Shown here piece by piece: positions 28,825 through 55,590 of a DNA stretch of 64,000 nucleotides. The stretch covers positions 372,001 to 436,000 of the forward strand of contig NC_018204.1 in assembly GCF_000219625.1 (NCBI RefSeq). The letters are read 5' to 3'. A program made the translations under genes and the position numbers. The stretch comes from Zymoseptoria tritici IPO323. Lineage: Eukaryota > Ascomycota > Dothideomycetes > Mycosphaerellales > Mycosphaerellaceae. Each line of letters starts with the position of its first letter. Positions within the stretch are counted from its first letter, which is position 1. Under the pieces are notes generated by a model. That model had not been told where the DNA came from. It did no database searches and worked only from the letters and a program-made list of their open reading frames with translations.

Positions 28825-29191
28825 GAAGATAAAGAATCATTCCTCCGCGATCTGTATAATACCGGAAGAGCGGTACATCGACGAGGCCGCTAGAACATAA
28901 TCCAGCCCGTACATTTCCTTGCTAATACGAGCTCTCGTCTGGTTAGATCAGGCGATGATTCGCCAACTAAAGCAGCCATTCTGGATGGAGTCTTCCTAGT
29001 AACTCGCGGAACTCTGGCAGCGTGTGTCGCTCAATGCTGGCCCAATTCTGCGTTCCTCGTCGGCCGTATATGTCGATGACGTCCATGAACAGTTCCAGCA
29101 CACGTTGCTCGGTGTTAGGATGGACTTGAGCCGTCAATTTGACAGGGTAGCCGGTGAAAATGCTGTGGAGCCATTGTGTAAGGTTATAATA

Positions 29192-29230
29192 GCGTCCTGT
29201 AGGGCAGTTTAGGTCACTACCTTAATTCTC
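29192..29230 (+). repeat. left 39-bp terminal inverted repeat
   Basis: Identical over 39 bp to the reverse complement of 41429-41467. It contains tagggcagtttaggtcac. The perfect match despite heavy RIP inside suggests the ends are too short to be targeted or the element is not very old. Confidence 0.9.
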
Positions 29231-30343
29231 GTTTCTTACAATTACAACACTACCACCACCATTGTCGCTAATTGCTTGTATTGTCACCTATACAGTAGCA
29301 GAGTTACTCTATCGACAATATCGACAATCACATGTAAGTGCGCGCGCGCTAATACGCCGTTTGGTTAGATAAGTGTCATTTTCTTCGACTCTCAAACCTC
29401 TTATTAACACTACCACTTCTACTACCTCTCTTCATCGCTCGTAGCGCGCTCGCCACACAATACACACCGCTCGCAATATTGCACCCTCGCGCGCACGTGA
29501 AAATAGCTGGTTAGATACTACTTAATACGGAACTTAGTAAGGCTCGCGACCCTAATCGCCTACGCGGACTCTCTCTTTCCGACGATAACGACGATAAGCT
29601 AGCGACCACATCTACTATAGCTATCGCTCCTGCTCCTTAGCTACCTGCCGACCTTCTCGTCTACGATAAGCCTGCTACAGCTACCTCTAAAGACTTCTAG
29701 TACATCTCCGACCTCTAATAGAACGATGCCCTCGTTAGAGCATAGAGCAGCAATAAAAACACTAAGAAGAGCGGACGTCAGATGCTTATAAGATACGATT
29801 ATGCACGCAGAGTTATAGAGACGGACGAAGGTAATGTAGCTCGCACGGCTCTTAGTAAGGCTCGTAGGCTAATAATAAATAACAGGCATTCCGGCGGTTA
29901 CTAAGTACGGCTAGTGCGAGGATCGCGGACTCGACTGCAAGACTTCTAAGACTCTCGCTGCCTACGCTTACTGCTACTATAAGGGCAAGCCTCTGTGTTT
30001 TGCTAGAGAGTAGGTAAAGATTAAGGAGGAGCCGGTAGAAAAGAAGTCTGTATTAAAGGAGGCTGTTAGCAGCATGCGAGGTAAGATAAATAAGGCGCAG
30101 GACAAGATCGCTACGTTAGAGTCGGAGGTGTCGGATTTAAAGCGTAAGATTGGCAGTTTGAAGCATAAGATTAGCGGTTTGAAGGGCATAAAAGGTTAGC
30201 TGAAGGAGGAGCTAATTAAGGAGATTATAGACGAGGTTGATAACGTGCAGAGCAAGTCAAAGGCTGCTATTGCTAAGATTAAGCAGTCGGTGTTGTAGTA
30301 TTAGCGTACTGTTAACGAGAAGTTCGGCAGACTAGGCGTAATA

Positions 30344-30558
30344 TGTAAAAGGTGCAGTTAAGAATAGAGTAGCAGTATGAATCACTTTAGAACAGACTCG
30401 ATTCGATACTCTCTCGGAAGGAGGAGATTCTACGTATCCTTATACTACAGGCGCAATCTGGCTTAAACGAGCTTAAAAGGCCCTAGTAGGGGTGCATATG
30501 CCGCTAAGGCAGGGGATTAGATGCCGATTGTCGGTATTCAGCGGAGGCAGATATAACA
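30344..30558 (-). repeat. 3' LTR (relative to gag-pol)
   Basis: 215 bp, starts tgtaaaaggtgcag and ends cagatataaca on the plus strand. About 96% identical to the other LTR; all nine differences are transitions. Confidence 0.9.
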
Positions 30559-30824
30559 TAGCCCCCCTCCTTACGCAGAGCGTCGCGCTCTAAACGGTTT
30601 CACCTCGAGTAAATTCTTTTTGGTGTTTGCCAAGTTTAATAGCCTAAGGCCTTAATTAGGGTCCACTGCGGCTTTAAAACCTAGGCTCGGATCCCTCGAG
30701 TTCTTCTCTTCTTCAACAACCTTATGCAGACTTAGTAAGTGTAACTTAATCCTATCCGATAGCCAAACAGGTCTAAAAGTGCCCCCCTAAGGGGCATTTG
30801 TAGCCTGTATAGTGCTAACATGGC

Positions 30825-31790
30825 GTTTAGTTCCCCTCTAGCCCTATTTTCCACCGGACGACCTCGAATTTCATCGAAAAACCGCTATTCTTACTAACCG
30901 ACCCTATCCGCGACCGAACGAGCCTATTATAACGCAACCCGCCTCTATTACGACCTAACGCAAGCAATTCGCCGCTAACAGCATCTTTAAGGGCAATCTA
31001 TGCGTCAACTGCCTTAACAAGCCCTTAAACAAGGCCGATTTGGCCTAGTTCTGCCTCTTTGCGCGCGAATCGCCGGACAAGTAGGCAACTAATAATAAGG
31101 ACGAATATTACCTAAAGTGTTACAATTGCTCCAACCGCGATTGTTTCTAGGTATGTACATATAGGGTCAAAAGGGGGCTTTCGGGGGCTAATATAGTTAA
31201 AAGATGCCGGAACTGGTTAAAGGCGACATTACGAGGGCTAATAAGCTCCGTAGGGCCGCTATTACCGCCGATGGTACTGGAGCGATAGCTGCAGCGGCTT
31301 GTTCGGCCTACAAGGCGGTCTACGTGCGCATTAAGGGGTATGTGTAGTTAGTTCAGGTCTGTTTGGCTCCGTTAACCCCCTTTTAGGCGCTTCAACTCCT
31401 TCACCGGTGTTAACAGCCTCTATCTGCACTAAGGCAAGGCCGAATTCGACTAGACGGGACCGCTTATGCTTAGAAAGCGCGAGAAGTTGCTCGCCAAGGA
31501 GGCTATAAAGCGAAAGAGGGAGCTTGTAAGTATTTAGGTCCCTTCTTGCCCAAAAGTGCCCTACTAACCCTAACAGGGTAAAGACGTGCCTAACACCCCC
31601 CGCAAGCGACTTATTCTGGCCTAAGGATCTACCGAGGACCGCCTAAGGCGTCGCGTTCGGGCCCTTTTGGCCGCTCTAGACACTGTCTACACCCGTGCAG
31701 GCGCTAAGAAGGGCTCGAAGGCCTCCGTTATAGAGGGAGTGCTCCGTCCGACCAAGTACGACCTCTCTAGGGACCTTAAGCCTAAGGAAT
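30825..31790 (+). pseudogene. spliced gene antisense to pol inside the Gypsy element
   Basis: Three plausible introns with GTATGT, GTATGT and GTAAGT donors and ATAG, TTTTAG and AACAG acceptors (the third preceded by ctactaac) separate four exons. The first exon encodes CVNCLNKPLNKADLA, then a single Cys, then YYLKCYNCSNRDCF, a pattern of CxxC pairs that could bind zinc. Later exons encode a basic helical stretch (LRKREKLLAKEAIKRKREL) and a C-terminal basic/acidic tail ending in TAA near 31790. Stops are TAG/TAA at Gln positions. It lies between the chromodomain end of pol and the 3' LTR on the other strand. Function unknown. Confidence 0.5.
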
Positions 31791-32149
31791 AAGCATATAA
31801 GCGCTTTTTCGTGTTTCTTTTGTCTCTTTTGGCCTCTTTTAGGCTCGTTTTAGGACTAATAGGCGCGGTAACGCCCGGGTTGTTTCTTTTTGCTACGACT
31901 TAGCGACTTATAGATTAGATGGAATTAAAATAACTTTACTATGCTCGATTGTCTCTCGTTGTGTAATAATGTCGTCCTTAGGGGCCCGTTTGGCCCCTGA
32001 TTTCCCCCCCCAGGATTTTATTAGATTAAAATTCTTCTAAGGTAGAGAAAATTTTTAGGTAACTAGGAACCGGACTAAGGAGTTAGTGTAGTGTTAACTA
32101 GTGTCTTTTAGGCCTTAATAGTAACTAATAACGCGTTTGTATATCTATC

Positions 32150-35100
32150 GTACTAGTCTACCGCCCTTAGTACCTCCCATACTTCTATTAAATGCTCTTA
32201 TCGCAGTAGGGCTAATGTAAGTTGCAGGTTCCTAAGTGTTTTTAGACGCGGGCCAGCCCTTCTACGCGATCCTGTACATCTATCTGCCGTGTTGTTTCTT
32301 ACGCTTTAGGATCTTATCTACTACGTAAACGTCGGGTTCCTCTAATCGGATCTCCTTTAGGCTATTCTAGGCCCGTTCAGTAATTTTGGCAGGTTTTTCC
32401 TCCTCTAGTAGGGAGATGTAGAATGTAGGATGGATGTTTATCGTTTCCGGCAGTTCTAGCGCGTACGCGACGTCGTTTACGACTCGCTTAATCCTATATA
32501 GGCTAACATACTTGTGATCGAGCTTTTCCGACGGCCGGATAGACTTTAAATACTAAGTGGAGAGGTATATACGGTCGCTAACCTTATATGTTTTCGCAGT
32601 TTTGCGAGCATTGTAGTATCGTGCGTGTCTCTCCTATAACGCAGCTAGTCTTTTATGTAGCGTTTTCTGTAGGCCGATTACTTTGTGCGCTATTTCCGCC
32701 GCACTAGGCGCTTTGCCCTCTAATTAGGGCAGGTCGGGCTATCTAGCGGCAATTAGATCGTAAACGTTACATGCTTAGAATGGTGTTACCCCTGTTGTCG
32801 CATAAACGCTATCGTTGTAAGAGAATTCGGCTACCGATAGCATTTGTGCCTAGTCGTCCTGTTCGTAGTTGTAGTACACTCGTAGGTATTGCTCTAGCGT
32901 TTGGTTCTAACGTTCCGTCTAACTGTCTATTTGGGGGTAATATGCGGTGCTTAGGCCCCTTCGGACCCTAAGGTGGTAGTAAAGCGTGCTCTAGAACTTG
33001 GATATAAGGATCGGTCCTCTGTTAGACGTAATTAACTTAGGAGTTCCGTAAAGGCGGAAGATTTCTCTTAGGAAGACCTCCGCGAGGGTTTCGGCGTTAA
33101 TGTCCTTCCGTACGGGAATGTAGTAGGCCATTTTGGACCACCTGTCTATAACGACGAGGATTAAGTCGTATGTGTGCTCTATAAACGTACTTAGGGGCAG
33201 ATCGGTAATAAAATCCAATGTTAGGTCCTCCTAGGGCCTGTTTGGTAGAGCTTCCGCACGGAGTTCTCTATATAGGCTATATCGCCGTAGCTTCGCCCTG
33301 TCGTATGTCTAGCAGCTGTTTACGTAGTCCTTAACGTATTTTCTTATGTCTGGCCAGTAGAACGACTGTTGCAACAGCTCTAGGGTCCGTTTAAAACTAA
33401 AGTAGCCAGCTAGGGGATCGTTATAGTACTAGCGGAGAGCTGCTAGGCGTACTAGGCCCGTAGGCACGTACAGTTTCTGTTCGTAGAAGAGGAATTCGCC
33501 TTATATAGCCTACCTTTAGGTCTATTCCGGCGGATCCGGGTTATTTATAGCCAGTTCGACTGTCGATGCTATAGGGTTATATTTCAGGCTTTCGCGTATT
33601 GTATTAATTAGCGGGGAGTCTGATAATTCTTCTATTAGAGTGCTCGCTATTATATACGTTTTGCTGCAGTAGGTCCTAGCGAGCTATAGATAGTAGGTTA
33701 TAACTGCTATTATAGACCGAACAGGGCTGGATTCGGCCGTTATTCCCTCGGACAGACCTAGTTGGTGCCGAAGGGTGTCTAATGCAGGAGCACTGTCGCT
33801 TTCGTTAATCTACCGTCCCGAGTAGTCCCTGTCTTCTAAGTCTAGGCGTCTGCTTACTCCGTCCGCGGCGGCATTAAGCAACCCCGGGTTGTACGTTATG
33901 CGGAAGTCGACGTTTGACAGCTGCTCTGCCTATCTTGCCTGTCTTCGGCTTAGTTGCTTGGTTGTTATAAACTATTTCAGGTTGTAATAGTCTGTTAAGA
34001 CCTTAATTTAGTGCGAAGCGCCCTTAACGTAGTATCTCTAGTGCTTAAAGGCCTCGACTATAGCGAGAAGCTCTTAATCGTGTGTGTTATAGTTCCTTTC
34101 GGCCGCGTTTATCTTGCTAGAGAAGAAGGCTACCGGGTGCTAGTGCATTTTGCCCTCCGTTTTATGCGGTTAGGACAGTACTGCCCCGACGGCGAACCTA
34201 GAGGCATCTGTTACGACGCGGATAGGCAGTTTTAGGTCGAAATGCCGCAAGATAGGCGCTTTAATAAACCTGGTCTTTAACTGCTAGAATGCTTGTACTA
34301 CGTTAGGTAGGAGCTCGAGGGGAACTAATTCCTCCTTTCTCTGTTAGTGTCCTCCTTTAGTACTATTTAGGCCTCTTTCTGTTAAGCGGTTTAGTAGGCT
34401 AGCTATACAGGAGAATCCCTTAATAAACTAGCGGTAGTAGTTTACAAATCCGATAAAGATGCGAATGTCCCTAACTAAGGCCGGAAGGGGCTAGTTAGCA
34501 ATAGCTTGGATCCTTTCTGCCTCTATTTCGACCCCTTTTAGGGTTACTACGAACCTAAGGTAGCCGACTTGCCGCTTAAAGAACTCGCACTTTGACAGTT
34601 TAGCAAAGAGTCGGTGTCTTCTAAGTCTCTCGAGGACTATCTTAACGTGTTTCTTATAGCTTTCGGCGTCTTATAAGTATATTAAGATATCGTCGAGGTA
34701 TACTACAACATAGTGGTCTAGCAGGCCCCGGAGGGCGTAGTTTATGTATCCTTAGAACACTACTGGGGCGTTAGTCAGCCCAAACGGGACTACAGTGTAC
34801 TCAAAGTAGCCATACCTCGTCCGAAAGGCAGTTTTCCACTAGTCACTCTCCTTAATTCGGATGCGATAGTACGCGTCTCGTATATCTAGCTTTATAAAGA
34901 ACTTTGCCGGCGCCAACTAGTCCAGAGATTCCTAGACGAGGGGCAGGGCATGTCTATTCTTAATAGTAACGGCATTAAGGGCCCTATAGTCGACGCACAG
35001 ACGTAGGCCGCCGTCCTTTTTCTTTACAAAGAGGATGCCTGCCCCCGCTAGGGAGGTCGAGGGGCGGATCTACCCCTTCTCTAGGCTGTCGGCAAGGTAG

Positions 35101-36970
35101 TTGCGCAGAGTCTCCAGTTCTGTTATAGAGAGGTTGTACAATAGGCTGTACAGGGCCTCCTTGCCTTCTTCGAGGTCGATACTAAGCTTATTCGGCCCCG
35201 TCTCGGGGAGAAGGGACTCGTTTCCTTCTACGAAAACGTCCGCGAAATCCGAGAATTCGCTTGGAAGTTCCGGTTCTTTTGGCGCGTCGTCTGTACGTTA
35301 AGCGGCAAGGGCCTAAACGCGCCCCGAAGGGATGCCGGAGGCGTCCTTCTAGAACTCTTTAGGTAAGACGAGCCTGACCGGCCTCTATTGTCTACCTTTC
35401 GTCCCCTTCCAGGTAACGCTTTTATAGATAAAGTTCACCCTCGGGTTCTATCGTTCTAGCTAGGGCATGCTAAGGACTAGTTGGAACCTGTAGATTCTTC
35501 CGACTACGAAGGTTTCTATACATCCTCTTATGTGTCCTTAAGTGTCTGTTACTTTAAACGGGACGCGGCATTCTCCCTAAATAGCTATCCTCTAGCTGTT
35601 TAGTACTACGTATTAGGCCGTTTGCCCTAACTCGGGGCTTAGGCCTAGCTCTTTAGCTGCTATGTTGTCTATAAAGTTGCTTTGCGCTCCGCAATCGAGC
35701 AGTGCTCGGAGTGTCTTAGTCCTATTAGGACCCTACATCTCTACTTTAAGGCGTATTAGCCCTTCCCCTGTAGTTCGGGGGATTCCTCCTAGCTCGGCAG
35801 CCTTTCTTTAGGCCTCTAAGTACTAGACTTAACCCGCAGCAATTAGAGGAGATCTACTGCGGGCTCTCCCTTTTCCCGACTAGTCCTTGTTAGGGCATTC
35901 CTAGCGCCGGTAGCCCTCTTTGCTATATGTCTAGTAGGCAGTGGCCGACTTCTCCTTATTAGCCGCCTTCGGGGGGGTTTTAGCCCTTCTTGGCCTACTC
36001 GGGGGCTTGTTATTTTTGTTTAGGCGCCTTCTGTTAGTCTCGTCGACGGAAGTCTTTGCTAAGCGCTTTTTATTAAATTCCTATATCTGTCGGTACGATA
36101 TGTTAGCTCGTTCCTCCGCATCTACGAGGGTCGTAAGGGTAACTTGGCCCTGTTCGAGCCTGTTTCTAACCGCCGGGGTAAGAGCTCCCTTGAATTTATA
36201 GATTATCCTAGGAATGTCGGTACAACCGATCTTATCCTACTGTTCTTTTAGGTAGTTTATTAGCCTAGTTAGGGTCCTGTCGCCCTATTTGGCCTCTTTA
36301 ATGTTGTCTATAGCTCTTTAGGTGCGTTCGTCTTTTGTACCTATAGAATCTAGCATTACGAGCTACATGTTGCTCTATATTAGCCAAACAGGTGCCTTGT
36401 CGAGAAGGTGGCGCTTCTAGTGCTGCTTTTAGGGTCTCGCTATCTATTCTTCAGCGAATTCTATCTTTTCTTCGTTAGTGGCTATACTAGCCTGGTTAAT
36501 TGCTCGGTTAATGTCTTCCTACTACTATTCCTAGTCGGCGCGGTTCTTTCCTTCGAAGATGTAGGGATTCCGGGCCTTTAGGAGCGCGTTCTTAGGGATA
36601 GATAGCCGAACTAGGGCATCGGGCAGGACAGTAGGGATAGATCCGTTCTGTACCTGGGCGATGCGGTCCCTTATAGCCTTATTGCGTACCTAGAGAAGGC
36701 TAAGCTGGAGGAGGCGCTCCTGTCTGGCGGTAGCGGCCTCCTCCTTACGGATTTGTTTATTAATGTCGTCTTCTTCTCCCTTAGGTGGGGTGTCTTCTTC
36801 CTATAGAGGGTTCTCCGGTTCTTCTTCGCCCTCGTTAGCGGCATCCTAGTGCCTAATAGGTTCTTCCAGGTTTTTAGGCCCGCCTTCGGCGTCTTCGTCG
36901 TCGCCAACGGCAGTCTGGGTAGAGGTTTCTATAGTCTCCGGGTCGTTAGCGGGTTCGTTCGCACAGCGAC
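32150..36970 (-). pseudogene. gag-pol polyprotein relic of a chromovirus
   Basis: Read with TAG/TAA at Gln and Trp positions. Gag is at about 36970-35830 with a degraded zinc knuckle near its end. Reverse transcriptase at about 35080-34500 keeps the YLDD active site (34691-34715). RNase H lies around 34230-33900. Integrase has an HHCC-type zinc region relic near 33340 and a catalytic core at 33218-32991 (LILVVIDRWSKMAYYIP), where the second catalytic Asp is now Asn (ITSNRG). A chromodomain (VVDKILKRKKQHGRQMYRI) is at about 32330-32215. The order is Ty3/Gypsy and the C-terminal chromodomain places it with chromoviruses. Confidence 0.85.
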
Positions 36971-37055
36971 GGGTGCTCTTGCTCCCTAATAGGCCGGGAC
37001 GAGACGAAGCTATCTCGGAAGTAATTCGTCGTGCTGTAGGGTAGATCGAATCGTA

Positions 37056-37270
37056 TATAAAAGGTGCAGTTAAGAATAGAGTAGCAGTATGAATTACTTT
37101 AGAACAGACTCGATTCGATACTCTCTCGGAAGGAGGAGATTCTACGTATCCTTATACTACGGGCGCAATCTAGCTCAAACGAGCTTAAAAGGCCCTAGTA
37201 GGGGTGCATATGCCGCTGAGGCAGGGGATTAGATGCCGATTGTCGGTATTCGGCGGAGGCAGATGTGACA
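37056..37270 (-). repeat. 5' LTR (relative to gag-pol)
   Basis: 215 bp, starts tataaaaggtgcag (the terminal TG is now TA) and ends cagatgtgaca on the plus strand. Confidence 0.9.
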
Positions 37271-37603
37271 TAATAGATCAATAGATAGATCGATTTGGCC
37301 TGCGAGCTCTCTACGAGCCTTGCGAGCCTGCACGTTGATACCCAAATGAATGCGTTAGTTACTATATATCTCCTTGAATCCCTCGTTTTCACGCTTGAAT
37401 CCCTCGTTTTCACGCTTACGAGCCAGCCGTTTTGGCCTGCGAGCACGCCGCGAGCTATTTTTAAGGAAGAGAATTAAGATATTAAGCTATTAAGATATAA
37501 GATACACGTTTATCGCTCCTTCCAGCCGCGAGCTAGTCCTTGTAGTCCGCGAGCACGCAACGAGCGAGTCGTCGGTAGCGTGTATTTATTAGATTTGTAT
37601 ATA

Positions 37604-39325
37604 TTAGTCCTTCTGGTTAGCCCTGCCCTTCTCGGTAAGCTTAATATTCCTCTCGCTCCGTCTAGTGCTAACAGCCACTAGCTCGTCGACCTTCTTCTTC
37701 TTCTTCTGCTGCTGCTGAACGACCGGCTTGACGACCTGCTGAACGACCGGCTTAACGACCGGCTCGGCGACCTCCTCCGGCATCTCTAAACCCCCTTGAT
37801 TAGCAGTGCTAGCAGCAGTGCTAGGGGCCTTCGACTTTAACTAAGGCGTTGGCATCGTCGTTGTCGCTGACGAAGAGGGCATCGTCGAGTCCGAACGGAT
37901 CGCTGGCGCTAGCGCACTAGCTGCTGCGGAGGAAATCGTCGAAGGTGCACTATTCTCCTTAGCTCGGTTCGCGGTAGCTTCCTTAGCCCTTGCTATATCG
38001 TCCAAGCTGTCCGTGTTAGGGTCGAGCAGAATGCAGTCGTTAGGCTGGCTTACTAGCGATAATTAAAGGTCGCGGCTAGCAGGGCGTTTAGAGCTAGAGC
38101 GTTGCTAAGGCTAAGGGCTGGAGTCCTGCTGCGAGGAGCTAAGGGCAGTGCGAGCGGAACGCGAACGGCTTGCGAGCCCTGCGGACTAGTCTGCGAGCGT
38201 CTTGCTGTTGCTACCGGACGGACCTGCTATGGCTATTACAAGGTAGCGAGCCTCCGGTGCGAGCTAGCTTGCAAGCAGGTAACTCTTGCCTACGGGGATC
38301 TCCCTACCGTCGACGCTAGTATAGCTGTTAGTCCATATAAACGGATAGTAAATAACGCCGTCCTTGTCCTTAAATACACGCCCGTTAGGGTGCAGGACAG
38401 TGCTATTAGTCTGCACGTTGTAACTAATTACATACTAGAATGTAGGCTCGCTGTTCTTCTTTACGGAGCGTTTTAGGTCTATATACACCTAGCTATCGTC
38501 GTAATTCTTCCAGCCGCTAGAGTAGATAACGTAAGTGATCTAAACGGTCGCCGAGGGAGCCCTGCTAGTTGTCCTTAGATTAAACAGCTATATTATCCTG
38601 ATCGTAGTATTCGCAGCAGCTACGTTGTTAGCGCCGAGCTTAATAGGCTAATTCCTGCTATACTCCCTTGTTAAATAGATGTCGTAGTAGGGCTTCTTGT
38701 CTCGCCGCTACTTCGCAGCTACGCTCTCGTTTAGCAGATACTCTAAGAAGAGCCTTCTACAGTTATGTTTCTTAGCGGCCTTAAGAATAGTGTCTATCTC
38801 GGCAATAACGCCCTAAGCTTGCTATAAGATCTTATTACGTTTGTCGGAGTATACCGGCGTCGCATTATCGTCGGCGTCCTTACTATCTATAGGCTCCGGA
38901 TCTATAAGGGTAACAGTGTGAAGGAAGCACTTAGCAGTAAACAGTAGCAGTAGCTTGTCCTTATTGTCCTAGGCACCGCCCCTCGCACTCTTGTTATTAG
39001 CTAACAGCTCCCTTAAACGCTTAGCCTTCTTAGCCTCCTTTAATAAGTTGGCGGCAGCGTTAGGTAACTTACGGGCCTTTGTCTTAGCCGCCTTCTTTAT
39101 CTTAGTGTTCGTACGGCTCTACAGAATGTATATACCCTCGCGAGCACTAGAGCTAGGAGGGGTAGCCTAGCGCTCGTAGTCGCTCGTAGGCTCGTCGTTG
39201 TTGCTCGCCGGAGCTGCTTGCGAGGGTAGAGGGCAGCTGTAGAAACCACAGTTCTTATCGCCGAGATTAGCATAAGAGGTGTAGGGTAGTGCCGCAGGGT
39301 TGCGGCAGAACTAAGAGGTAGCCAT
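37604..39325 (-). pseudogene. second accessory gene of the 12.3-kb element
   Basis: One frame of 574 codons from ATG 39325 to TAA 37604-37606, with TAG/TAA at Gln positions and one low-quality stretch near 38240-38080 that may be an intron. The N-terminus is short and Cys-containing. A basic helix follows (KIKKAAKTKARKLPNAAANL, then LLKEAKKAKRLRELLA), then CFLHTVTLIDPEPID and a middle domain with YLTREYS and VYIDLKRSVKK. An Ala/Ser/Pro-rich linker precedes a repeated VVKPVVQQ stretch and a poly-Lys C-terminus. DNA- or transposase-binding is a guess from the charge. No family recognised. Confidence 0.55.
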
Positions 39326-39408
39326 AAGACGGCTGTATACACAAGGGACGGTAGTAAGTAAGAGGAAGAGGAAGAGCGAGGACAGGAGGGCATAGCCTTG
39401 TATATCGT

Positions 39409-41313
39409 TTAATCGAATGCAAAGCCGTTAGCACGGAAGAAGTCCCTTATGCGGTTACGCGGCTGCAACTTAGCTCCCTTCGGAGGGGTCTAAAACTCTG
39501 CGAGGTTATTACTAGCAGCAAGATAACAACTAGCAGCATCGCGGAGGTAGAGATATGCATCCACATAGATCTTATCCTTGTTAGCGTCCAGCTCGCAACC
39601 ATCGAGCGTCGCTAGATAGCTACTAGCTACTAGTATCTCGGTAGCCTACAGCAGAGTCGGCGGAGGAAGGTATGCAAGGAGATCTGTAAATAGTTAGCTC
39701 GTTACGGCACGTAAAACGCTCGCAACGCTCGCAACGCTAGCAGGCCAGCAGCAAGCTCTCGATCCCTACACTGCTCCTTAACCCTAGCACGCTCGCAGCA
39801 GCACGCAAGCCGCTCGCGGGGAAATACTAACCGAATTAAGCATACTAATCCGCTATCCGCTAGATACGCGGATGCTCTGCGTTAAGGTATATTCCGCGAT
39901 CCTCTACGCTATTAGGAGGATAGTCGTAGTTGTAAGTAGGAATACTAGGCAAGTGCCCTTCGACTTTAGGCTACTTTCGAATAGCATAGTTATTATAGCT
40001 GTTAATAAACAGCTCGACCGTAAACCGGAGGATTAGAACGTAGACTGCAAGGAACGCCACACGGTCAGCCCTACTATCCTCGCTATAGAGGCCTTTATCG
40101 CGAAGCTAGTAGAAGAAATTACGCCATCGATTCCACCCTACAGCTGCACTAAGACCCTAGAAGCGCTCTATCGTTTAATTGCCCTTGCTCGTTATATACT
40201 AGAAGCTATCGCGGAACTTAATGCTCTAATCCTCCTAAAGTTTATAGCAGAAGAGGTGTATATTAGCTATTAAAGGAGTCTCTACGCTGTAATCCGCCCG
40301 CATAATCTGTGTATAAATAGAGTTAGTAGAGCTGCAGAGCTGCGAGCATAGCACAACCGGTTGCGAGCCTACCTTTAGCGTAAAGCCAAGTTCTCGGACT
40401 GTATCTAAATACTGCTTAGAGACCGAGAAGACCGTCTTAGCTATAGTGCCTATGTAAATCTATATAATCTTCTGTGTGTATATATCGATACAGGTATAAA
40501 AGCAGATGCCGAAGCTCTCGAACTTGTAGTAGGCATCTACCGACCATATATAATTAGGACCCTTAGCCTTTAGACGACTGCGCTTAACATCCTTACAACT
40601 ACCCTTCCGGCAGCGGCAAGCATTAGGACCTACAGGATTAAGGGTATACGAGATGTTAGCTATGCGATCCCTACGAGCAAACGAGCGTTAGCATACGAGC
40701 TAGGCGAAGGAGTTTACGAGCAAGGGAAGCAGCGTAAATTGCAGTTTACGAGCAGACGAATCTAGCCTGCGAGCGTGCTTGCGAGCGTGCTTGCGAGCAT
40801 GCTTGCGAGCGTGTATACAGACCTTCTAATAATGTTGTATTCCTTCCGCAGGTGCCTTGCTAATCGTTTGTATTTATAGTCATCTAATGCACTACCTACA
40901 ATCGTCCCCTCTAACACTATCCGTATAACCTTATCGTGTTCAGGCTAGTTATCTCGTAGGATCCTTCGATACAAGCCTAGCTTCTTCCGGATATCTGCTA
41001 ATTGCTACAGGCTTATCTCGAAGCCGTCCTTCCTTAGGCATCTTAACAGCCTCTTATCCTTTATATCCTACTGCTAGAAGAGCTCCTTAATCCTTGCATA
41101 CAGCAGTGCCTAATAGTCCTTATCTTAAGAGATCCTCGGATGCGTAGAGAGCTGCTAACGAGCTAGTATCTGTCTGAACGTTCGAGGCTTAATAGCTACT
41201 TGCTGCTCTTCCCTTAGCTATTAAACGACGTCGTCGTAGGTCTATTCGGAGACCCTAAGAAGGAGCTCGATCTCGGTTCGAAGGTAGTCGATGTTAAGGG
41301 CGGCGCGTAGCAT
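39409..41313 (-). pseudogene. integrase-core (DDE) transposase relic
   Basis: From ATG 41313 (MLRAALNIDYLRTEIELLLR) an N-terminal helical region leads to LRKDGFEISLQQLADIRKKL, a helix-turn-helix-like stretch. Two introns are visible (about 40812-40667, GTATAC...TGCTAAC...CGTAG; about 39837-39688, GTTAGT...GCTAAC...TACAG). The catalytic core keeps three acidic residues: Asp in NYIWSVDAYYK (near 40545), Asp in RADYSVET, Glu in TIERFQG followed by NRWRNFFYQLRDKGLYSED. This is the integrase-core family often annotated only as 'integrase core domain protein' in fungi. Placement in the IS3EU-like group is a possibility I cannot test. The C-terminus ends NGFAFD, TAA. Confidence 0.7.
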
Positions 41314-41428
41314 GGCGAGAGGGTAGTAAGGGCGTTAAAAAGAAGAAGAACGATGTTGCGAGCAAGAGAGGTAGACGTTGCGAGCGCTTACTAAGCGTTA
41401 AATCGATAAAACGAGGTTTTGAGAAAAT

Positions 41429-41467
41429 GAGAATTAAGGTAGTGACCTAAACTGCCCTACAGGACGC
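41429..41467 (-). repeat. right 39-bp terminal inverted repeat
   Basis: Partner of 29192-29230. Immediately outside is the coding sequence of the interrupted host gene. Confidence 0.9.
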
Positions 41468-41800
41468 CATCTTATCCCAGTGGCGGTTCCCTGGTCCTGA
41501 GCACTGACGAATCCGAAGATTGTTTGCCGACATCGACTGAGTCACCTGCAGCCACTTTCGAGAAAAGTCTAGAAATGGTATGATGTTGTTCTTCTCAACG
41601 ATGATGACGAAAGAGTTCTTCGAGTAGTATATCTCTCGTAGCTCCGTGTTCGTCGGAAAGGCCAACAGCAGTGGCGGCTCCCGGACAGGGTTGGGAATGG
41701 CATCGGACTTTGATAGCTCGTGAGCGAATACCAAATGTCGGAGTTCTGTTGGTAGCTCAAAGGTCGAGAAGGTGACTGGCTTTGATGTGTGTATCCCCAT

Positions 41801-42983: not shown

Positions 42984-44592
42984 GGATCATCACAGCGGGT
43001 TAAAGCGGGGACCCGAACCGTAAAGACATGTTGAGCGCAAATCCTACCGGTTTGCATTCTTGGAGGCCACCTTCTGATCATACGCCATCCTCGAAAGCAT
43101 AGCAATCCTAGGATGTTATTAGCACAATTCCAGAGCGCAGGCGGATGTTTGACGCACGTTGCTGCCTCTCCATTGAGCCATCGCAGGAGAGTGGGCCGTG
43201 AATCGAACGCCTTCTTATGCTCAACGAACCAATTGGGTTTTCTTGTGGTATCGCTTGCATTGCCCCAGTTCTCGCGATGGAGAGATTATCTTCCGAGCTC
43301 TGACGACGGAAATTCTTCTCAGACTGCTGGAAGAAGCCTACTTTGGCGGCTGCGGACTTGAGGATGCCGGCGGGTAGTGGTGCGAGGACGTCTCTAGCGG
43401 TGCGGTCTTTGCGGTGCGGTCTTTGCGGTGCGGTCTTTGCGGTGCGGTCTCTGCGGTGCGGTCTCTGCGGTCTCTGCGGTGCTTGCGTTGTCTGTCGTTG
43501 TATTTTTTGACCCTGGAGTGTGGTGTGCCTTTCGCTCGTGTCGGTGGAATGTTCTCTTTGCCAGGAGAGTGAGAGTCGGCGTAATGCGTGGACGAATGTC
43601 TTCAAGACAGAACAGCAGGACAGAGTGAAGATGTTAAGTCGAGCGATAAAGAATTCCAGACCCACAAGGTAGGGTTGATGCTGGGCGGGTTCGGGTTGGC
43701 GTAGACGCACCGGTCTCCAAGTTCACAGTAGGAATACCCCTTTCGGACCACGCTTCGAGCCCACGCTGTCATTGGACTGTCTTGTGCGTAACTCATCCCT
43801 CAAAAGGTCCTGTATAGCGGGCGCTCGTGCATCTCGAGCAGCTTCCCGGTCGCGCTTCTCGGCCTCCAGCCGCATTGTTCAGTTTTCTCGGAGCATTTGA
43901 CGACGAGCTTGTCCTGTTCCACATCACGCTTTCTCAGGTTCTCTGCGATTTTCGCGTGATCTGCATCATCGAAAGACTTGAGTCGATCCTTTCAACGTTG
44001 ATGGCTTGATACAGTAATCGTTTTCTGTCACCGGTACTGGCCTCGGAAATGATGAGAGCTTTCTGTAACGTGCGAACCACCGGACGAGATCCAGGCGGCC
44101 TTGAGGTTGCTTCGAGCTGTCGAATCGGTGCCGCGCTGCAAAGCCGATGCGGCAAGGGTGGTTGCCGCTGGAGGGTGGTTGGAAGAGTGTCGCCGTCCGC
44201 CGTCCACCATCTCATTCGCCGAGTAGGGGAGGACGAGATGATGCTGAACCAATCCCCAAGCTCAAACGCAGCAACGGACCCACTCACCCCGTCGGCTTGT
44301 CCTCGTCGCGACTGGTAGTATTGTCGAACAGGATGTGGTCGAGAGGCTTATGTCGACACTGCCATCTGCGAGATGTCATTCATCCGGAGCGAGGAGCAGG
44401 CGCCGTTAGTGCTGTCCGTGTGGCTGTAGAGTGTACCGCAAAGACACATGCACGGCGAGGCGGACATGTAGTACTGGTGCGCGTTGATCGTGCCCGGCGT
44501 AATGCAGAGTTCGAGTATCCCGTCCCGCGGACCAAAGTCTCCCCTCCATTACTGTAAGCCGCCTCGAGCAAGCCCTTGGCACAACAGAAAAT
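42984..44592. other. GC-rich stretch with a minisatellite, no confident gene
   Basis: A minus frame over 43108-43710 is open for 200 codons, but its centre is only the translation of the 14-bp minisatellite. 43820-44560 has short frames on both strands with nothing decisive. Confidence 0.35.
43397..43490. repeat. 14-bp minisatellite
   Basis: About five to six copies of gcggtctttgcggt, later copies with ctctg. The unit is not a multiple of three, so the open frame across it is probably a by-product. Confidence 0.8.
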
Positions 44593-47582: not shown

Positions 47583-48193
47583 CCCTTGTATCTCACACAA
47601 CTGCGTCGCTGCTGGTCCACGTTGTGAGTTGCAGTGAAGAATTTGGCCATCCTATTGCTCCAGTAGTGCCGTCGTCCAGAGATTTGGCAGCGGTAGTAAG
47701 ATGAAGAGGCCGCGAATATTTCGTCCATAGGAGAGGCTTTGGTCGTGTAGTTGTAACAATCGAAATGCGTAGCGTTTGGAGGACGACGGGCGTCCAGGTC
47801 GATTGGGATGGCTCTCAACTCCCAGCCTAAGTCGTCGAGTATGAGGTTATTCTTTATCTTCAGCTTGAGAGCACCCATCCGACCGCGTCCTGCTTGAGGT
47901 ATAAGTCGGACTCCCAGCTGCTGAACGACTCTTGGCTTCGGTCGTGAACGGCAGTCCCTCTGGTCGCCATTCGGGTGGTCGCCATTCGGATTAGAAGCCA
48001 CGGTGGCAATGATGGCAGCTGCGGCAAAGATAGCACGTCTTGTCGTGTGGCAGATCTTGTTCGTGCGGTGATGTAGCTAGTTCTGGAACCACAGCACTAC
48101 CGAGCCTCTCAGAGGCGTCAATCGGTTCGCGCCGCCGTTGAGGACCAAAGATGGGTCGTATGGGCCGAGAACAGCTTTTCGGTGCGGCATCAT

Positions 48194-48725
48194 CGTGACT
48201 CTATGTCCGCCCGATCTCGCGTTGCCTTCCTCATAGGACCCTTATGCCTCGAGTCTTTGCTTGCTGAATGATTTCGAGCTCCGGCTGAGCTTCCGTTCTC
48301 CTCGACCAATGCGGCGTCTAGTCCACAGGACAGGGAAGATTCTCCAGCATACTTGCGCGTTTCCAGGTGACGACGGCTGGCGCGGGGACGCAACGTTAGG
48401 CATATCTGGAAAGTAAAGGCTGCCGCAGTCGTCGGGCATCAGCATCCTTCTCGTCTCCGGATCCTTCGCATTCTTCCGAGTCGGAAGTCTCGTTTTCGAA
48501 GCTGGCGTGGCGACACGTGTTCATGCATTCATCGAAGCGGATTTGGGCAGCATAGCGGCGACCTTTCCATCGTGGACAGGTACATGACGAGGTTGTTCGC
48601 ATTTGCCGTGAGACATAAGCAAGCAGTCCGGGGATGCCAGTTCTTATAGCATTAATGGACAGACCCCAAAATGATCTACGGCCGCGCTGCCCTTGCGGAC
48701 ATGATTCTTTTCTCTCGTCTGGCGG
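48194..48725 (-). other. minus-strand gene-like frames, unresolved
   Basis: A frame from ATG 48602 (MRTTSSCTCPRWKGRRYAAQ) with CxCP and CMNTC motifs and an acidic stretch (ENETSDSEECEGSGDEKDAD) is protein-like to about 48420. A second frame to 48190 may be its continuation out of phase. No structure supports joining them. Confidence 0.3.
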
Positions 48726-49375
48726 TCATTTAAAAATGCGACTGTCTCTATCGTCGTCGTCATTCTCGGTGACGGCTTCTGCTAGAGCGGCCAGGGGTCG
48801 TTGGAGGTAATCTCGGCGCCAGTAGGAGAGGAGTATCTCCTCACCCACTGCACCTTTTGGTGTCGGGAAGGTATCTCTTGGCCAACTTCTCGCGCAAGTC
48901 AGCCTCCTTTGGACAACCTCCTGCGCGGGTGGTGGAGAGGCGGAGTGATAACGCAGGTTTGGTGGGTGCTGGGGTTGGGTGGTGAAGAGGTCGAGGTGGT
49001 GACGGGGTTTGATGGGTACCGGAAGAGATTCGGTGGCTGGAGGGTCCATACTGGAAGGAAGCTTGCTCTTCCGAGGATTTGTCGATGTTCGTGATGAGCG
49101 CCTTGTTTTCTCTGTGGCATTTGGAGCTTTAGAAAGACCCCCGAGAAGACTTTGTCGTCGGTCTCCGATGATCGAGTGCGAGGGATTTGAGTCGGAGAAA
49201 TTGCTTGTTCTTCTGCTGCTGAGGATTTGTTGCTGTCTTTGGATTCTTGGATTTTTGGAGCCTTTGCGAAGGCCTTTAAGAAGAGGCTGTTGTTGGAAGT
49301 CTGATCATCGAGCCGTTCGATCTCCTTGCCTAGCTTATCGTTGTCGTCCGACGGCAGCTCGATAATATCGGGCAA
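48726..49375 (-). pseudogene. unrecognised gene with one frame change
   Basis: ATG 49375 (MPDIIELPSDDNDKLGKEIE) begins an acidic, Ser/Lys-rich region protein-like to about 49130. From there the protein-like frame is one base over (TRRSSRTSTNPRKSKLPSSM), then Pro-rich (LFTTQPQHPPNLRYHSASPP) and a C-terminal helix (LSYWRRDYLQRPLAALAEAV, then an acidic run) to the stop at 48726. A run of five G near 49134 is a likely indel site. About 215 residues. No C-to-T nonsense. Probably a nuclear or disordered protein; function unknown. Confidence 0.4.
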
Positions 49376-49893
49376 GGGCGGAGGTCGATGATTCCATGTG
49401 GTGGCCCTTCGCCGAGCGATATAGCTTCTGACACTTCGCCTGCATCACCTAGACTGCTCTTCTGCTGCCTTCATTCGAACACCCAGGCCAAGGCCAGCAT
49501 CCTCAGAGCTGTCGTCCTCATCCTCATGCTCATCACTCGCTCTAGATCATGTCCAATTAACAAATTAATGGTACAGGAGCTATCATCGCTACAGGAGGCT
49601 GGGGTCGAAGAACGGATCTCTTCGGCATCGCTCGATATTTCTCGATGTGCGAATGATCGCATCTGAACTGAGAGCGCGCTGCGCTCCGGCTCCGGCTGCA
49701 AGGTCCGCACTCCCGTCTCTTGCCGATCAAACAGCTCAAGGAGCACAGCAGAACCACAAGTAGGCAGGGCCCCGTGATGGTATTCGACAGCCGCCGCACC
49801 TGCATCAGCATCGCCCCGCGTGTTGGAGATATTCCGACGGTCAGCATCTTCTCCGTAGTCCTTCAGTGATAGCAGCTTTTCCTCCATGCGTGC
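49376..49893 (-). other. open minus-strand frame of uncertain status
   Basis: A frame from ATG 49887 (MEEKLLSLKDYGEDADRRNI) to 49471 is open for 138 codons and protein-like in its first half. A frame with a signal-like hydrophobic stretch (ITLSITLFLLLLQITSEAIV) at 50072-49863 overlaps it. I cannot decide between them. Confidence 0.3.
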
Positions 49894-50442
49894 CTATGTA
49901 CCGCTATCCTCTCTTGACTTGATGAGGCCTTGCAGCTGATCGTGGTGGCCGCGGAAACGATGGCCTCGGAGGTGATCTGCAGTAGGAGGAGGAAGAGGGT
50001 AATGCTCAGGGTGATGTGGTTCGGAGGACCAGAAGAGGCGTGTCGGAGAGTGGCCGACTGGAAAGACGTCATATAGACTGGTCGGCGTCGAGAGATTTGT
50101 GTTGGAGGTGATGTGACTTAGCGTGTCTGGCACTGGCGCGCTCTTATCGTGCCTTATCTTTGTGATCATCTTGGCCTTGCTCCAAACCGCTCGAAGTCTT
50201 TGTCCTTCGAAGTCCAGAGCCCTTGCTATTCCGGCTTCTCTCACGTCAATTTCTTGTCGAGCAAGCGAGAGTGGACAAAAGTGCTGTGCGGCGCAGGTCG
50301 GGAATGATGGAAAATCTGGAAGGCAGGTTTGGATCATCGTGGATGCAGCGGCAACTATGATCAAATGCGGTTCATAGCGAGGTGTCCTCAGGCGCGGGCC
50401 ATGCTGGGTGAGACAGGTCTTGACACGGCAGCGCCTCCCCAT
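49894..50442 (-). CDS. unrecognised 182-codon frame
   Basis: Open from ATG 50442 (MGRRCRVKTCLTQHGPRLRT) to the stop at 49894. The central part is protein-like (QEIDVREAGIARALDFEGQR, LYDVFPVGHSPTRLFW). The N-terminal 40 residues are less so, and the real start may be an internal Met or an upstream exon. His/Pro-rich C-terminal third. No motif. Confidence 0.3.
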   Translation of the reverse strand: MGRRCRVKTCLTQHGPRLRTPRYEPHLIIVAAASTMIQTCLPDFPSFPTCAAQHFCPLSLARQEIDVREAGIARALDFEGQRLRAVWSKAKMITKIRHDKSAPVPDTLSHITSNTNLSTPTSLYDVFPVGHSPTRLFWSSEPHHPEHYPLPPPTADHLRGHRFRGHHDQLQGLIKSREDSGT

Positions 50443-50756
50443 CGGTTGGATCAGCCATGTCAGTATCCCAAGCTTGTTGCTCGCAGGATCTGCTTTTGTT
50501 CGGCTCTGTATGAGATGAAGGCGGAGGGATCGCAGATACCCGTCGCCTACGAGGGAGGAACAACTGCTTCCTTAAGCAAGTGTTGAGTGAAACATGTTTT
50601 CGTTGGCTTTGCCCGGCGTAGCACTAATTTTGTCGGTCGCTCAATCCCCTCCTTCGTTTCTTTCCCCTTTCTGTCGACTCTCACGTTGACGGTCGGAGGA
50701 AGGTCATCCTTGACGACCGGCGGCGAAGACATTTGTTTCGACTCCGCTCCTGCGTT

Positions 50757-51203
50757 TCAGCCCCGGCAGCACTCCGTCTTGTCATCTTGCTCCACATTTC
50801 CTTGTTGCCATTTCCGTTGCACAAGACCATCTTGGCCTTGTGCGCTTGGTCTTTCGGAGTTCGTGTGAGAGAGGTTGATAAGCAGTTCCGGTGCGGGTCG
50901 TTTGCTCTGCTCCGCGTTTAGTGGCCAGGCGGTGCGCCATAAGTTGGCTTGGGTGATTGCATGGCGTCTTCGTATGACTTCTTCGTGGATGACGGGTTGA
51001 GACGCCCAGTGATCTGTCATGTGCTGTCCTGTTAACTTGATGTTCCTGATCAGGTGATCAAAGCTTGAAGCCGAAAGCTGAAGTCCGTGTAATAGAAGAA
51101 GGTCTGCGGGGTTGCAAGCAGAATGATCAACGCGTACACCCTCACCTCCTTGCACCTTCGCCACAATGCAATCATGCTCCGCCTCTCCCTTCGATCGAGG
51201 CAT
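50757..51203 (-). CDS. unrecognised 148-residue protein
   Basis: ATG 51203 (MPRSKGEAEHDCIVAKVQGG) to TGA 50757, uninterrupted and protein-like throughout (LQLSASSFDHLIRNIKLTGQ, VIHEEVIRRRHAITQANLWR). It ends in a Gln/Lys-rich tail with two Cys. No signal peptide, no membrane helix, no recognised domain. Confidence 0.38.
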   Translation of the reverse strand: MPRSKGEAEHDCIVAKVQGGEGVRVDHSACNPADLLLLHGLQLSASSFDHLIRNIKLTGQHMTDHWASQPVIHEEVIRRRHAITQANLWRTAWPLNAEQSKRPAPELLINLSHTNSERPSAQGQDGLVQRKWQQGNVEQDDKTECCRG

Positions 51204-51347
51204 GCAAAATTGCTACCTTTCAAACTTCACCACCACGCCAGCTGCGTCAACCTTCCATCTCAGTGGCAGCACCGCCCCGTCCTCATACTCCTTGCCGTCT
51301 TGCCCGCCCTCCCTTTCCTCCGCATCCACCATACTCCCGCTCGAGCT

Positions 51348-51956
51348 TCACAGCCGACCACTCTTCCTCCCATTGCTCTGGGACAGCTTGTAACTATCAC
51401 GGGAGAGTCGGCGAAGGAGTGTAATACGATCCAGCATGACCATCTTTTCCAAAGTCATCCTTGGCCGTGCTTTCACACCACACTGTCGAGTCGCGTCGAG
51501 CTCTCGTTCCCGGCCGCCGCCGCTGCCATAGGTGTACGGCTTCGATTTAATCGGAGGCTGTTTGGTCCTTTCCCCGGCACTCCGCCTTTTCGACGTCAAC
51601 TTCCGTACACCGCCCGCGTCCCAGGGCGGACATTTGTCATATCTGTCCAGTTCGGCTCGGTGTCTTGAAAGCCAAGGTGTTTCCTTTGACCGAATCTGTG
51701 TCAACTCCGCGAGCTGTCGTTGCGTTGAAGATGTGATGCATTTCGCTATACAGATCGGACGTACTTCGCACCTCGCAGGTGAGACCGAATGTTGCACGTC
51801 AAAGACGCTGCTGCTGTGGATATGAGCGTATGCCACGCTCTCGGCAACCATGTCTGTGGATCGTGGTACTCCTGTGTATGGCAATAAACGGCTGATGTTG
51901 CAACTACTACGACCAGCGCTCCAGATCAATGTCCCTCTTCTGCAACCGCACCACAC
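51348..51956 (-). CDS. unrecognised 202-residue protein
   Basis: ATG 51956 (MWCGCRRGTLIWSAGRSSCN) to the stop at 51348. The frame is open and protein-like over its length (SVAYAHIHSSSVFDVQHSVS, CIAKCITSSTQRQLAELTQI), with a Lys/Arg-rich C-terminal third (LTSKRRSAGERTKQPPIKSK, LEKMVMLDRITLLRRLSRDS). Seven Cys in the first 85 residues. Could be nuclear by charge. No domain recognised. Same strand as the next three candidate genes. Confidence 0.42.
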   Translation of the reverse strand: MWCGCRRGTLIWSAGRSSCNISRLLPYTGVPRSTDMVAESVAYAHIHSSSVFDVQHSVSPARCEVRPICIAKCITSSTQRQLAELTQIRSKETPWLSRHRAELDRYDKCPPWDAGGVRKLTSKRRSAGERTKQPPIKSKPYTYGSGGGRERELDATRQCGVKARPRMTLEKMVMLDRITLLRRLSRDSYKLSQSNGRKSGRL

Positions 51957-51996
51957 TCGGCCACTTCTTTTCGCGGTAGTCCTTCGTCTTTCTTCG

Positions 51997-52314
51997 CTAT
52001 CGCCGAGCCATCAGTGGGTTCGGGGAGATCGAGGTCACTGCGAAGGGTCTGTCCGCTGTTGGCGTAGCTTGCGGAGGACTCGAGACGGTGGTTGGAATCC
52101 GATGTTGGCCGTGCTGTGTGTGAGTCAACTCATTGTGATCTAGAGTCTGAAAGTCGACGATGTTCGGCGTTTTGTGTGACCGGGGTTCGATAAGGTTGTC
52201 GTCGTCTTGCAGGGTAATCTGTTTGTCTTCGAGCTCTGGAGCTGTTTGATTAATGTTGTCGTCGTCATGTGTGCGGACAAGCGGAGCAGGCGGAGGTGTT
52301 CTACGGTGGACCAT
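51997..52314 (-). CDS. small Asp/Pro/Thr-rich protein
   Basis: ATG 52314 (MVHRRTPPPAPLVRTHDDDN) to the stop at 51997, 105 residues, uninterrupted. Composition suggests a disordered protein (ELEDKQITLQDDDNLIEPRS). No domain. It lies 40 bp upstream of the 51348-51956 gene on the same strand; they could be exons of one gene. Confidence 0.35.
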   Translation of the reverse strand: MVHRRTPPPAPLVRTHDDDNINQTAPELEDKQITLQDDDNLIEPRSHKTPNIVDFQTLDHNELTHTQHGQHRIPTTVSSPPQATPTADRPFAVTSISPNPLMARR

Positions 52315-52609
52315 TTCAAAGTAGTACGGAGGGCCATTTCAAAGTATTACAGAGAAGAGAGCCATCAAGGTCTTGCGGAGGACGATGTCAATCTTTTCAT
52401 TCTGTACGACGAGACCTCCTTGAGGCGGCCACCAAACCGCTCTGGTCGAAATTGATGTGCATGGCCTTGCTCCCGCCGGAGCCGAATCCGCCGTCTACCG
52501 ACAGAATAAGGTATCGACGTTTCAAGCGGCATTGTCCGTCCGGTGCACCGCAGTACGAGCAGCAGCCGGCACAGTGAAATGCATCATGCGCGGCGCTCGC
52601 AATCGCTGT

Positions 52610-53110
52610 TCACGACAGGCATGGAGGCAGGACCTTTCGCCCGGCCGACTGCAGGCAACTGACCGAAGTCCGCCCTCGAAGCTCTGGTCTCTTCACCTTC
52701 GGCGATCCCTGCAGCGACCCACGATCCACAGCCTGTAGAAGAACCAATCTCGGAAGAGGACAGACTGATGGATCGGAGAGGGCGTGAGGAGAAAGACAAG
52801 GACGTTTCGGAGAGCCAACATGTGTAAGAGATCGAGAGGGCAGTATAGATGACAATTGTGCCTGGTACTGACACAGTTGCCTTGCTCTGGAGATGGTGCG
52901 GACAGGCTCGCCACTGCTGTCGCTCAGCAAGACCGCCAGCGAAGGCGAAGTACCGGTGAGTGGGTCGATGTTGTCTTGTGACCCATTCAAGTCGTTGCCG
53001 ACGGTTGCCCGGTCGTCGAGGATGTTGCGGTGGTCTTTCAATCTTTTGTTCAAAGGTGGTTGTTGATGGGATTGGGGGCCGGACTGTGCAGGACTTCTTC
53101 ACGAACAACT
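52610..53110 (-). CDS. unrecognised frame, about 147 codons
   Basis: The protein-like frame reads RLKDHRNILDDRATVGNDLN, GTSPSLAVLLSDSSGEPVRT and ISRARQLCQYQAQL to a stop at 52610. It lacks an ATG at its 5' end; in frame it extends upstream through a Gln/Pro stretch to a TGA that is one change from CGA. A short frame at 53340-53119 (RDIASRWEETEVMDDGSAEE) on the same strand may be an upstream exon. Confidence 0.33.
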
Positions 53111-53315
53111 CCGGTACTTCACTTCATCACCACTACGCTGCAGAGGATCGTCGTCTCTTCGTTTGCCGTGGAGTCTTTTGGCCTTCGCTTCGACTTCGAC
53201 TTCATCCCGATCAGCCTGGATTCTTCAGCTGAGCCATCATCCATCACTTCAGTCTCCTCCCATCGTGACGCAATGTCCCTGGGAAAGCTCCTCAACCGCC
53301 GTTCCGCCGTCGTGG

Positions 53316-54288: not shown

Positions 54289-54855
54289 CGCGCTTCCTGC
54301 CGTAGCTGGATTATATTGTCTTCAGCGCTGTTCTGATGTGGAATAGGTTTGTAGACGCACGGCGAGACATGTTGACAAAGGTAAGATGGGATAGCAAAAG
54401 CGAACTGTGCCCTCGGTGACGAATACACGTTTCGTTCGCACTCTCCATTCATCAAAACGATGCCAATCATCTCCATGCTCTTGAAGTCCGAAAGATCGCA
54501 ATTCTTAGTGCGGCGCCGGTGAGGGCGTGTGAACCGTGAAGTATGTTGACGCTAAATTGGTGCTTTCGAACGGAAGCGAGGACCAACCACTGACGTATGG
54601 TGTTGCTTCTAATGCTCATAGTGGTGCTTGCTGTCGCTGCGTTTCGGTCGATGGAGATGCTGTCGATGGAGTGGCCTTTAAGCCTACGGTGATACCCAGC
54701 CAGATGCGATCGAAGCCCTTGGACGCGTACGTTTGACTGCCTGTCGCTCGTCGCACTGATTGAGCATATCAGTCGCACGTTCCGTGATGATACTCAAAGC
54801 TTCAACCGGGTTGTCCAGTGCGCTTTGCAACCCTTCGCAAAGTAGAGAAACAGCA
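54289..54855. other. short frames only
   Basis: A minus-strand frame at 54830-54690 (DAVSLLCEGLQSALDNPVEA) is helical and protein-like and lies directly after the 54856-55365 coiled coil, one frame over. It may be that gene's 3' continuation. Confidence 0.3.
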
Positions 54856-55400: not shown

Positions 55401-55543
55401 AAACTGCGAGAGCGTGTGTTAGTAACTACAAGTTGTCAAAGCGACGGGAGGTTCCACTTGCAGGTTCGCCGCCATGTCGTCTGCCACTCTTGCACTGCTT
55501 GTTGGTCTGTTCGTGAATGCGCGGTCAAGGATAAGAGTGAGAT

Positions 55544-55546
<3 letters not shown>

Positions 55547-55590
<44 letters not shown>

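Follow-up and report, generated by a model that had tools for sequence, protein, structure and literature searches.

A degraded three-gene DNA transposon with an integrase-core transposase and phased motif arrays in Zymoseptoria tritici

Results

Bounds and target site of the element

The stretch of DNA analysed here, referred to as the window, comprises 64,000 nucleotides of the wheat pathogen Zymoseptoria tritici IPO323 (NC_018204.1, positions 372,001 to 436,000) and belongs to contig 15, which we take to be an accessory chromosome. Between window positions 29188 and 41471 it carries a degraded DNA transposon with a transposase gene, a companion (gene B) on the same strand and a divergent second companion (gene A) at the opposite end. 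An earlier sequence-only reading had given this element perfect 39-bp inverted ends, which are indeed present (29192-29230 and 41429-41467). As read from other copies, the true bounds lie 4 bp further out on each side, and the terminal inverted repeat (TIR) is 43 bp long (left, plus strand, 29188-29230; right, minus strand, 41429-41471). The two ends of the window copy match at 41 of 43 bp, and the outer GATG of the left end is now AATA, two G-to-A changes of the repeat-induced point mutation (RIP) type. The element measures 12,284 bp, or about 5.35 kb without the retrotransposon that splits it, in line with the 5.3 kb estimated earlier.

A 4-bp target-site duplication (TSD), TTAT, flanks the element at 29184-29187 and 41472-41475. 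A TSD of 2 or 0 bp, as read at the 39-bp boundary, was dropped because other copies show four further TIR bases. Across the window's empty site a minus-strand host open reading frame (ORF) is open and in frame (..RNRHWDNLTQWLHSIF..); Pfam gave no name to either half of it. The sequence-only reading had missed the duplication and proposed that it be read from relatives. This was possible in 19 copies with both ends located, namely the window copy and 18 of 35 further stretches that were fetched (L009-L043); the remainder were cut, nested or had an unlocated end. The 4-bp TSD was exact in 16 of the 19; in L015 it matched at three of four positions (CTTA/CTTG, a RIP-type change), and in the two misfits, L009 and L012, it was absent. 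The termini were GAT..ATC in these 19 copies, except for a RIP-type AAT at one end each of the window copy and L032. The outermost TIR bases were GATG/GATC in the family of the window element (family 1) and GATA/GATG in a sister family. L037, read by eye and outside the 19 counted, has GTAG flanks on both sides and GAC at one end.

L009 (G000:C6:1114631-1120053) and L012 (1185223-1190645) are inverted copies on the same contig, with flanks GTTT..CACA and AAAC..TGTG. Their TSD halves are swapped, exactly as expected if the two copies had recombined with each other and thereby inverted about 65-76 kb.

The three genes

The transposase gene, on the minus strand, has four exons within 41313-39409, comprising 512 codons with 23 stops. 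Its introns, located by comparison with the homologous predicted protein P0001, number three rather than the two proposed earlier. Exon 1 (40823-41313) encodes the N-terminal region, which is Clr5-like in P0001; exon 2 (40373-40670) carries the first D of the D-D-E triad; exon 3 (39832-40306) carries the second D and the E; and exon 4 occupies 39409-39683. The three introns hold eight (intron 1, 40671-40822, 152 bp; sites at 40672-40804), two (intron 2, 40307-40372, 66 bp) and three (intron 3, 39684-39831) copies of the motif TRCGAGC described below. All three acidic positions are kept at codons 209, 268 and 310 (D-58-D-41-E), as the sequence-only reading had stated. P0001 is an open relative of 511 aa from isolate ST99CH_1A5 with the same D-D-E spacing. 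It matched rva_4 (8.5e-18) and Clr5 (8.8e-5) above the cut-off and HTH_21 (7e-4) below it, and its match to NCBIfam IS3 (1e-5) fell far under the curated cut-off. A PDB sequence search with the transposase gave no useful match.

Gene B (minus strand, 37604-39325) consists of 573 codons plus a stop, corresponding to the 574-codon protein reported earlier, and contains 18 internal stops and no known domain. Its open relative, P0002, has 584 aa. Gene A lies on the plus strand. Exon 1 (29535-29830, start approximate) includes a module ending ..SGRQ.L.RY..A.RV.ETDEG, the conserved form being ..SGRQTLNRY.HAGR.QETDEG..; a 55-bp intron (29831-29885) follows, with two TRCGAGC sites 21 bp apart; and exon 2 (29886-30338, end approximate) encodes a Cys cluster, with some Cys lost in the window copy, and then a coiled coil. 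This agrees with the divergent Cys-rich coiled-coil gene of the sequence-only reading. The coiled coil is predicted by a single-sequence model as helices 178-250 and 255-281. In the gene A relative P0003, six Cys are spaced C-x2-C-x6-C-x12-C-x2-C-x7-C, which fits the Zn2Cys6 consensus, although Pfam reports no such match and P0004 is without one of the six.

P0001 to P0004, the four predicted proteins recovered, all come from Z. tritici ST99CH_1A5. The queries were the sequences of the sister element L024, and the search works by shared 5-residue words. With 89% and 93% identity, respectively, to the L024 queries, P0001 and P0003 belong to the sister family, while P0002 is nearest to a third subfamily (86% to C3:1147100). 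P0001 and P0003 lie on contigs of equal length, as do P0002 and P0004.

Retrotransposon insert and RIP decay

A long terminal repeat (LTR) retrotransposon (minus strand, 30344-37270) with TG..CA ends splits the element. Its 5-bp TSD, TAATA, lies at 30339-30343 and 37271-37275 (ends and TSD read by eye). It is not part of the family, as the two halves of the element join without it in all 15 fetched family-1 stretches (L009-L023). About 1.4 kb of the retrotransposon beside its left LTR (30560-32000) may contain another gene or insert.

The TA/AT ratio, a dinucleotide signal of RIP, is 1.79-1.88 in the element and its insert, compared with 0.99 in the left flank, 0.65 in the right flank and 0.43 at 48000-64000. 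None of the three genes is intact in the window copy; in addition to the stops given above for the transposase and gene B, two gene A pieces have 11 and 6, counted on translations that run into the intron. A second strongly RIP-like stretch occurs at 12000-14500 (TA/AT 1.94; GC 34-39% at 12001-14000), and a tandem array with the 14-bp unit GCGGTGCGGTCTTT lies beside the element at 43383-43480.

The family in the genome

The genome of the window (39,686,251 bp, 21 contigs) was searched with the window's genes, giving at least 97 transposase, 51 gene B and 53 gene A matches, and with P0001, P0002 and P0003, giving at least 146, 79 and 86. These counts are lower bounds because only the best candidates were scored. 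Manual merging of these matches left 65 transposase, 58 B and 59 A places; the pairing was scripted. A tight layout, in which B lies no more than 2.6 kb away on the transposase strand and A no more than 6 kb away on the opposite one, was found in 42 of the 65 transposase places, and a looser one in 16 (eight with B near and A far, eight with both far). Five of these 16 share a partner gene with a neighbour (C2:231.7k, C12:757.6k, C1:2450.2k, C2:969.6k and one of C5:975/983k) and may be fragments. A partner on the wrong strand or wrong side was seen in at most one of the 65 places, and three of 58 B and five of 59 A places were unpaired.

Transposases are about 46-55% identical between sister families, and B and A about 26-33%. 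Sister families whose transposases are only about half identical preserve the three-gene layout, and isolate 1A5 has open predicted sister-family proteins. These results support the sequence-only description of a multi-gene DNA transposon in which an integrase-core transposase, gene B and divergent gene A lie between the TIRs. Relatives bounding only a subset of the genes, named by that reading as evidence to the contrary, were looked for by layout: beside the 58 places with full or looser layouts there is one with B only, one with a far A only, and five, of a distant clade, with neither.

Several other places were noted. L040-L043 are elements of greater divergence, whose transposases show about 26-39% identity to P0001 over the pieces that match; gene A or B was undetectable in them, and they have their own motif, CGTTCGYA. 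B and A without a paired transposase were found at G000:C6:802-804k and G000:C1:3408-3409k, and an orphan gene A exon 1 at G000:C13:50303-50665; these are possibly truncated or non-autonomous copies.

Motif arrays

Candidate motifs, which the sequence-only reading had missed, came from a k-mer count, which gave TGCGAGC and its RIP form TACGAGC, together TRCGAGC. Simple repeats (CTACTAC and the like), also high in the counts, were set aside as low complexity. The window element has 31 TRCGAGC sites and nine other family-1 elements have 24-34 each; in all ten, the number was higher than in any of 60 dinucleotide shuffles. Elsewhere in the window the density is 0.27 sites per kb; the retrotransposon insert has two sites (shuffle mean 2.0), and eight sister elements have 0-3.

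The sites are concentrated in non-coding DNA. With the bounds of gene A taken as approximate, the window element has 24 sites in 1251 non-coding bp versus 7 in 4010 coding bp (Fisher 4e-10). All four introns carry the motif. In addition, five sites lie between genes A and B (37301-37444, plus strand), two, 22 bp apart, upstream of the transposase (41357-41385, plus strand), and two, 32 bp apart, upstream of gene A (29437-29475, minus strand).

Neighbouring sites are also phased, at multiples of about 10.6 bp. Of 18 consecutive same-strand neighbours no more than 60 bp apart in the window element, six tandem ones (9, 9, 10, 12, 12 and 12 bp) were dropped; the other 12, at distances of 11, 21, 22 or 32 bp, each deviated by no more than 1.5 bp from a multiple of 10.5 bp (null 0.34, P 2.4e-6). 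The best spacing period was 10.5-10.8 bp in all nine related elements tested. As the intervening sequences are unlike, this phasing argues for repeated binding of a protein along a single helix face.

The sister family has a different motif, TCTYRGTG, which exceeded shuffles in seven of eight sister elements. In L024 its copies, spaced by 12 bp, sit in the first two transposase introns and in the DNA separating B from A, and the family of P0003 has both TCTYRGTG and CTAAGATC as its own motifs. When five motifs were compared over four clades, each clade was richest in a different motif, though the motifs were not exclusive.

Discussion

Relation to known elements

The sequence-only reading had held that most fungal cut-and-paste elements carry a transposase alone; multi-gene fungal elements are nevertheless known, among them Styx and IS3EU elements with TET/JBP and alpha-kinase genes. 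Styx, a class II element of Zymoseptoria, is described as 7927 bp long with four ORFs including DUF3577, a 36-bp TIR, a 6-bp TSD and putative DNA-binding companions (GATA, CCHC), and as linked to chromosomal rearrangements (PMC10853768). The family described here resembles Styx in its genus, its several genes and its integrase-type DDE transposase, but differs in being about 5.35 kb long with three genes, a 43-bp TIR starting GAT and a 4-bp TSD. DUF3577 (PF12101), used as a locator of Styx, had no match in the genome, the controls being equally silent. IS3EU elements are described as having TA..TA ends and usually a 6-bp TSD (PMC10045372), and their TET-bearing families as having TET/JBP and alpha-kinase companion genes (PMC12730594). 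IS3EU and GingerRoot have an IS3-like integrase-core transposase, which that of our family may resemble, and their fungal members can bear extra genes.

That the element belongs to IS3EU as a divergent member near Styx, itself from Zymoseptoria, is a possibility that we take seriously without favouring it. The integrase-core match and the weak IS3 matches agree with it, as does the assignment to IS3EU of Styx, itself multi-gene with an integrase-type transposase (PMC10853768). However, the GAT..ATC ends and 4-bp TSD fit neither canonical IS3EU, with its TA..TA ends and usual 6-bp TSD, nor Styx, which also differs in its 36-bp TIR and 7.9 kb length. By description, Ginger1 shares an integrase-like DDE transposase and a 4-bp TSD with our family, and it forms a separate lineage in the published tree (PMC10045372). 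A published description of the family was not found in our literature search; it may sit unnamed in transposable-element library supplements.

A possible self-recognition system

VANDAL21 is a plant Mutator-like element. Its genes encode the transposase VANA, VANB and VANC; VANC21 is reported to bind dense same-orientation motif arrays in VANDAL21 introns and upstream DNA, VANC6 to have other motifs, and binding and demethylation by VANC to have been shown experimentally in Arabidopsis (PMC5735166). Our family is similar in having three genes, an element-specific motif that is dense in introns and the rest of the non-coding DNA, and a sister family with another motif, more weakly so there. The likeness is one of gene number and motifs, and in our family motif binding by A or B is inferred only, unlike in VANDAL21.

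The motif arrays and their phasing are plain; which protein binds them, and to what end, we infer. We lean towards the interpretation that the window element is a copy, inactivated by RIP, of a three-gene autonomous transposon in which gene A, perhaps with gene B, binds the motifs for anti-silencing self-recognition. Under this model: the DDE transposase, of integrase type, would bind to both 43-bp ends and integrate the element at a 4-bp stagger, probably by cut-and-paste, the duplications being seen and the chemistry deduced; the gene A product, whose Cys cluster and long coiled coil are laid out as in a dimeric DNA-binding protein, perhaps with that of gene B, would bind the element-specific motif (TRCGAGC in family 1); the bound motifs would be the 24-34 repeats, most of them intronic or intergenic and lying on a single helix face; and such a DNA-binding cofactor, coating the non-coding DNA of the element, might keep its genes active against silencing, as VANC does on VANDAL. 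More tentatively, the family may be a fungal counterpart of VANC systems in which element proteins recognise phased family-specific arrays, protein and motif have co-diverged, each family de-silences or mobilises only itself, and gene A came from, or was given to, a small host gene family.

A number of observations weigh against this interpretation. Regarding the motifs: they were selected post hoc, for their enrichment in these very elements; six of the 31 window sites fall in the gene B frame and one in a transposase exon; the nine phased elements have a common ancestry and do not provide independent instances of phasing; L031 fails to exceed shuffles for its own motif, TCTYRGTG, while family-1 elements L015, L018 and L020 slightly exceed them for it (2-3 sites); the non-coding preference in L024 (8 sites in 1144 non-coding versus 6 in 4193 coding bp, P 0.004) is weaker than in family 1; and the third subfamily (L033-L035, L037) carries TRCGAGC at 0.87-1.29 per kb, while its own motif, GAGATTA, is enriched yet close spacing of it was not seen. 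Regarding the proteins: Pfam and NCBIfam left A and B nameless, with no Pfam match to a zinc cluster such as Zn2Cys6; the coiled coil is the sole firm part of the single-sequence gene A model; the AlphaFold model of gene B, with two sequences, was unusable (pLDDT 33); and no open family-1 protein was among those recovered with the L024 queries, the open relatives being of sister families.

An unlikely alternative is that the arrays are transposition assembly sites, similar to CACTA subterminal repeats, at which A and/or B bend or compact the element and join its ends with no anti-silencing role. Helical phasing would suit such cooperative assembly, and the predicted coiled coil of gene A is consistent with it. 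On the other hand, the sites are spread over the whole element in introns and intergenic DNA; the TIRs contain none, and no more than four of 31 fall in the roughly 300 bp next to them. We consider it still less probable that the motifs are promoter, enhancer or splicing elements bound by host factors, with A and B acting otherwise. The sites in all four introns and upstream of both the transposase and gene A could be so explained, but sister families within one host genome differ in motif, which is unexpected for a single host factor, and both site orientations occur within introns, which argues against splicing signals. Finally, that A and B are passenger host genes without a role in transposition is very improbable, since their order and orientation are fixed among elements whose transposases share only about half of their residues, and since open predicted A and B proteins of sister families exist in isolate 1A5, even though un-RIPed gene A relatives lie with no transposase nearby and a distant clade has no detectable A or B.

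Gene A relatives outside elements

These relatives occupy two loci. On contig 7 (L044, G000:C7:1748200-1752600) there are two tandem gene A-like frames of 319 and 274 codons, and on contig 3 (L045, G000:C3:468600-471200) one of 577 codons. The frames have the module and the Cys cluster of gene A, with 40-54% identity, and are un-RIPed (TA/AT 0.45-0.52). Neither locus has a match to P0001 or P0002, or an intron at the position of that in the element's gene A. An ATG precedes the module in the 319-codon frame alone; the two remaining frames would require an upstream exon or may be broken, and the 274-codon frame has one TAG within the gene A match. These relatives may reflect capture or domestication. 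The contig 7 pair adjoins an ORF that by eye resembles a lipoate-protein ligase.

Implications

TIRs have been given for Styx and some other families in work later than that of Dhillon et al. (PMC10853768), and the present analysis supplies TIR and TSD for a group numbering 65 transposase places. Multi-gene fungal transposons pose the question of what job their extra genes do, and phased family-specific arrays make this testable, protein against motif. The un-RIPed gene A relatives likewise open gene capture or domestication to testing. The arrays suggest that self-recognition via motifs dispersed in introns may have evolved not only in plants but also in fungi.

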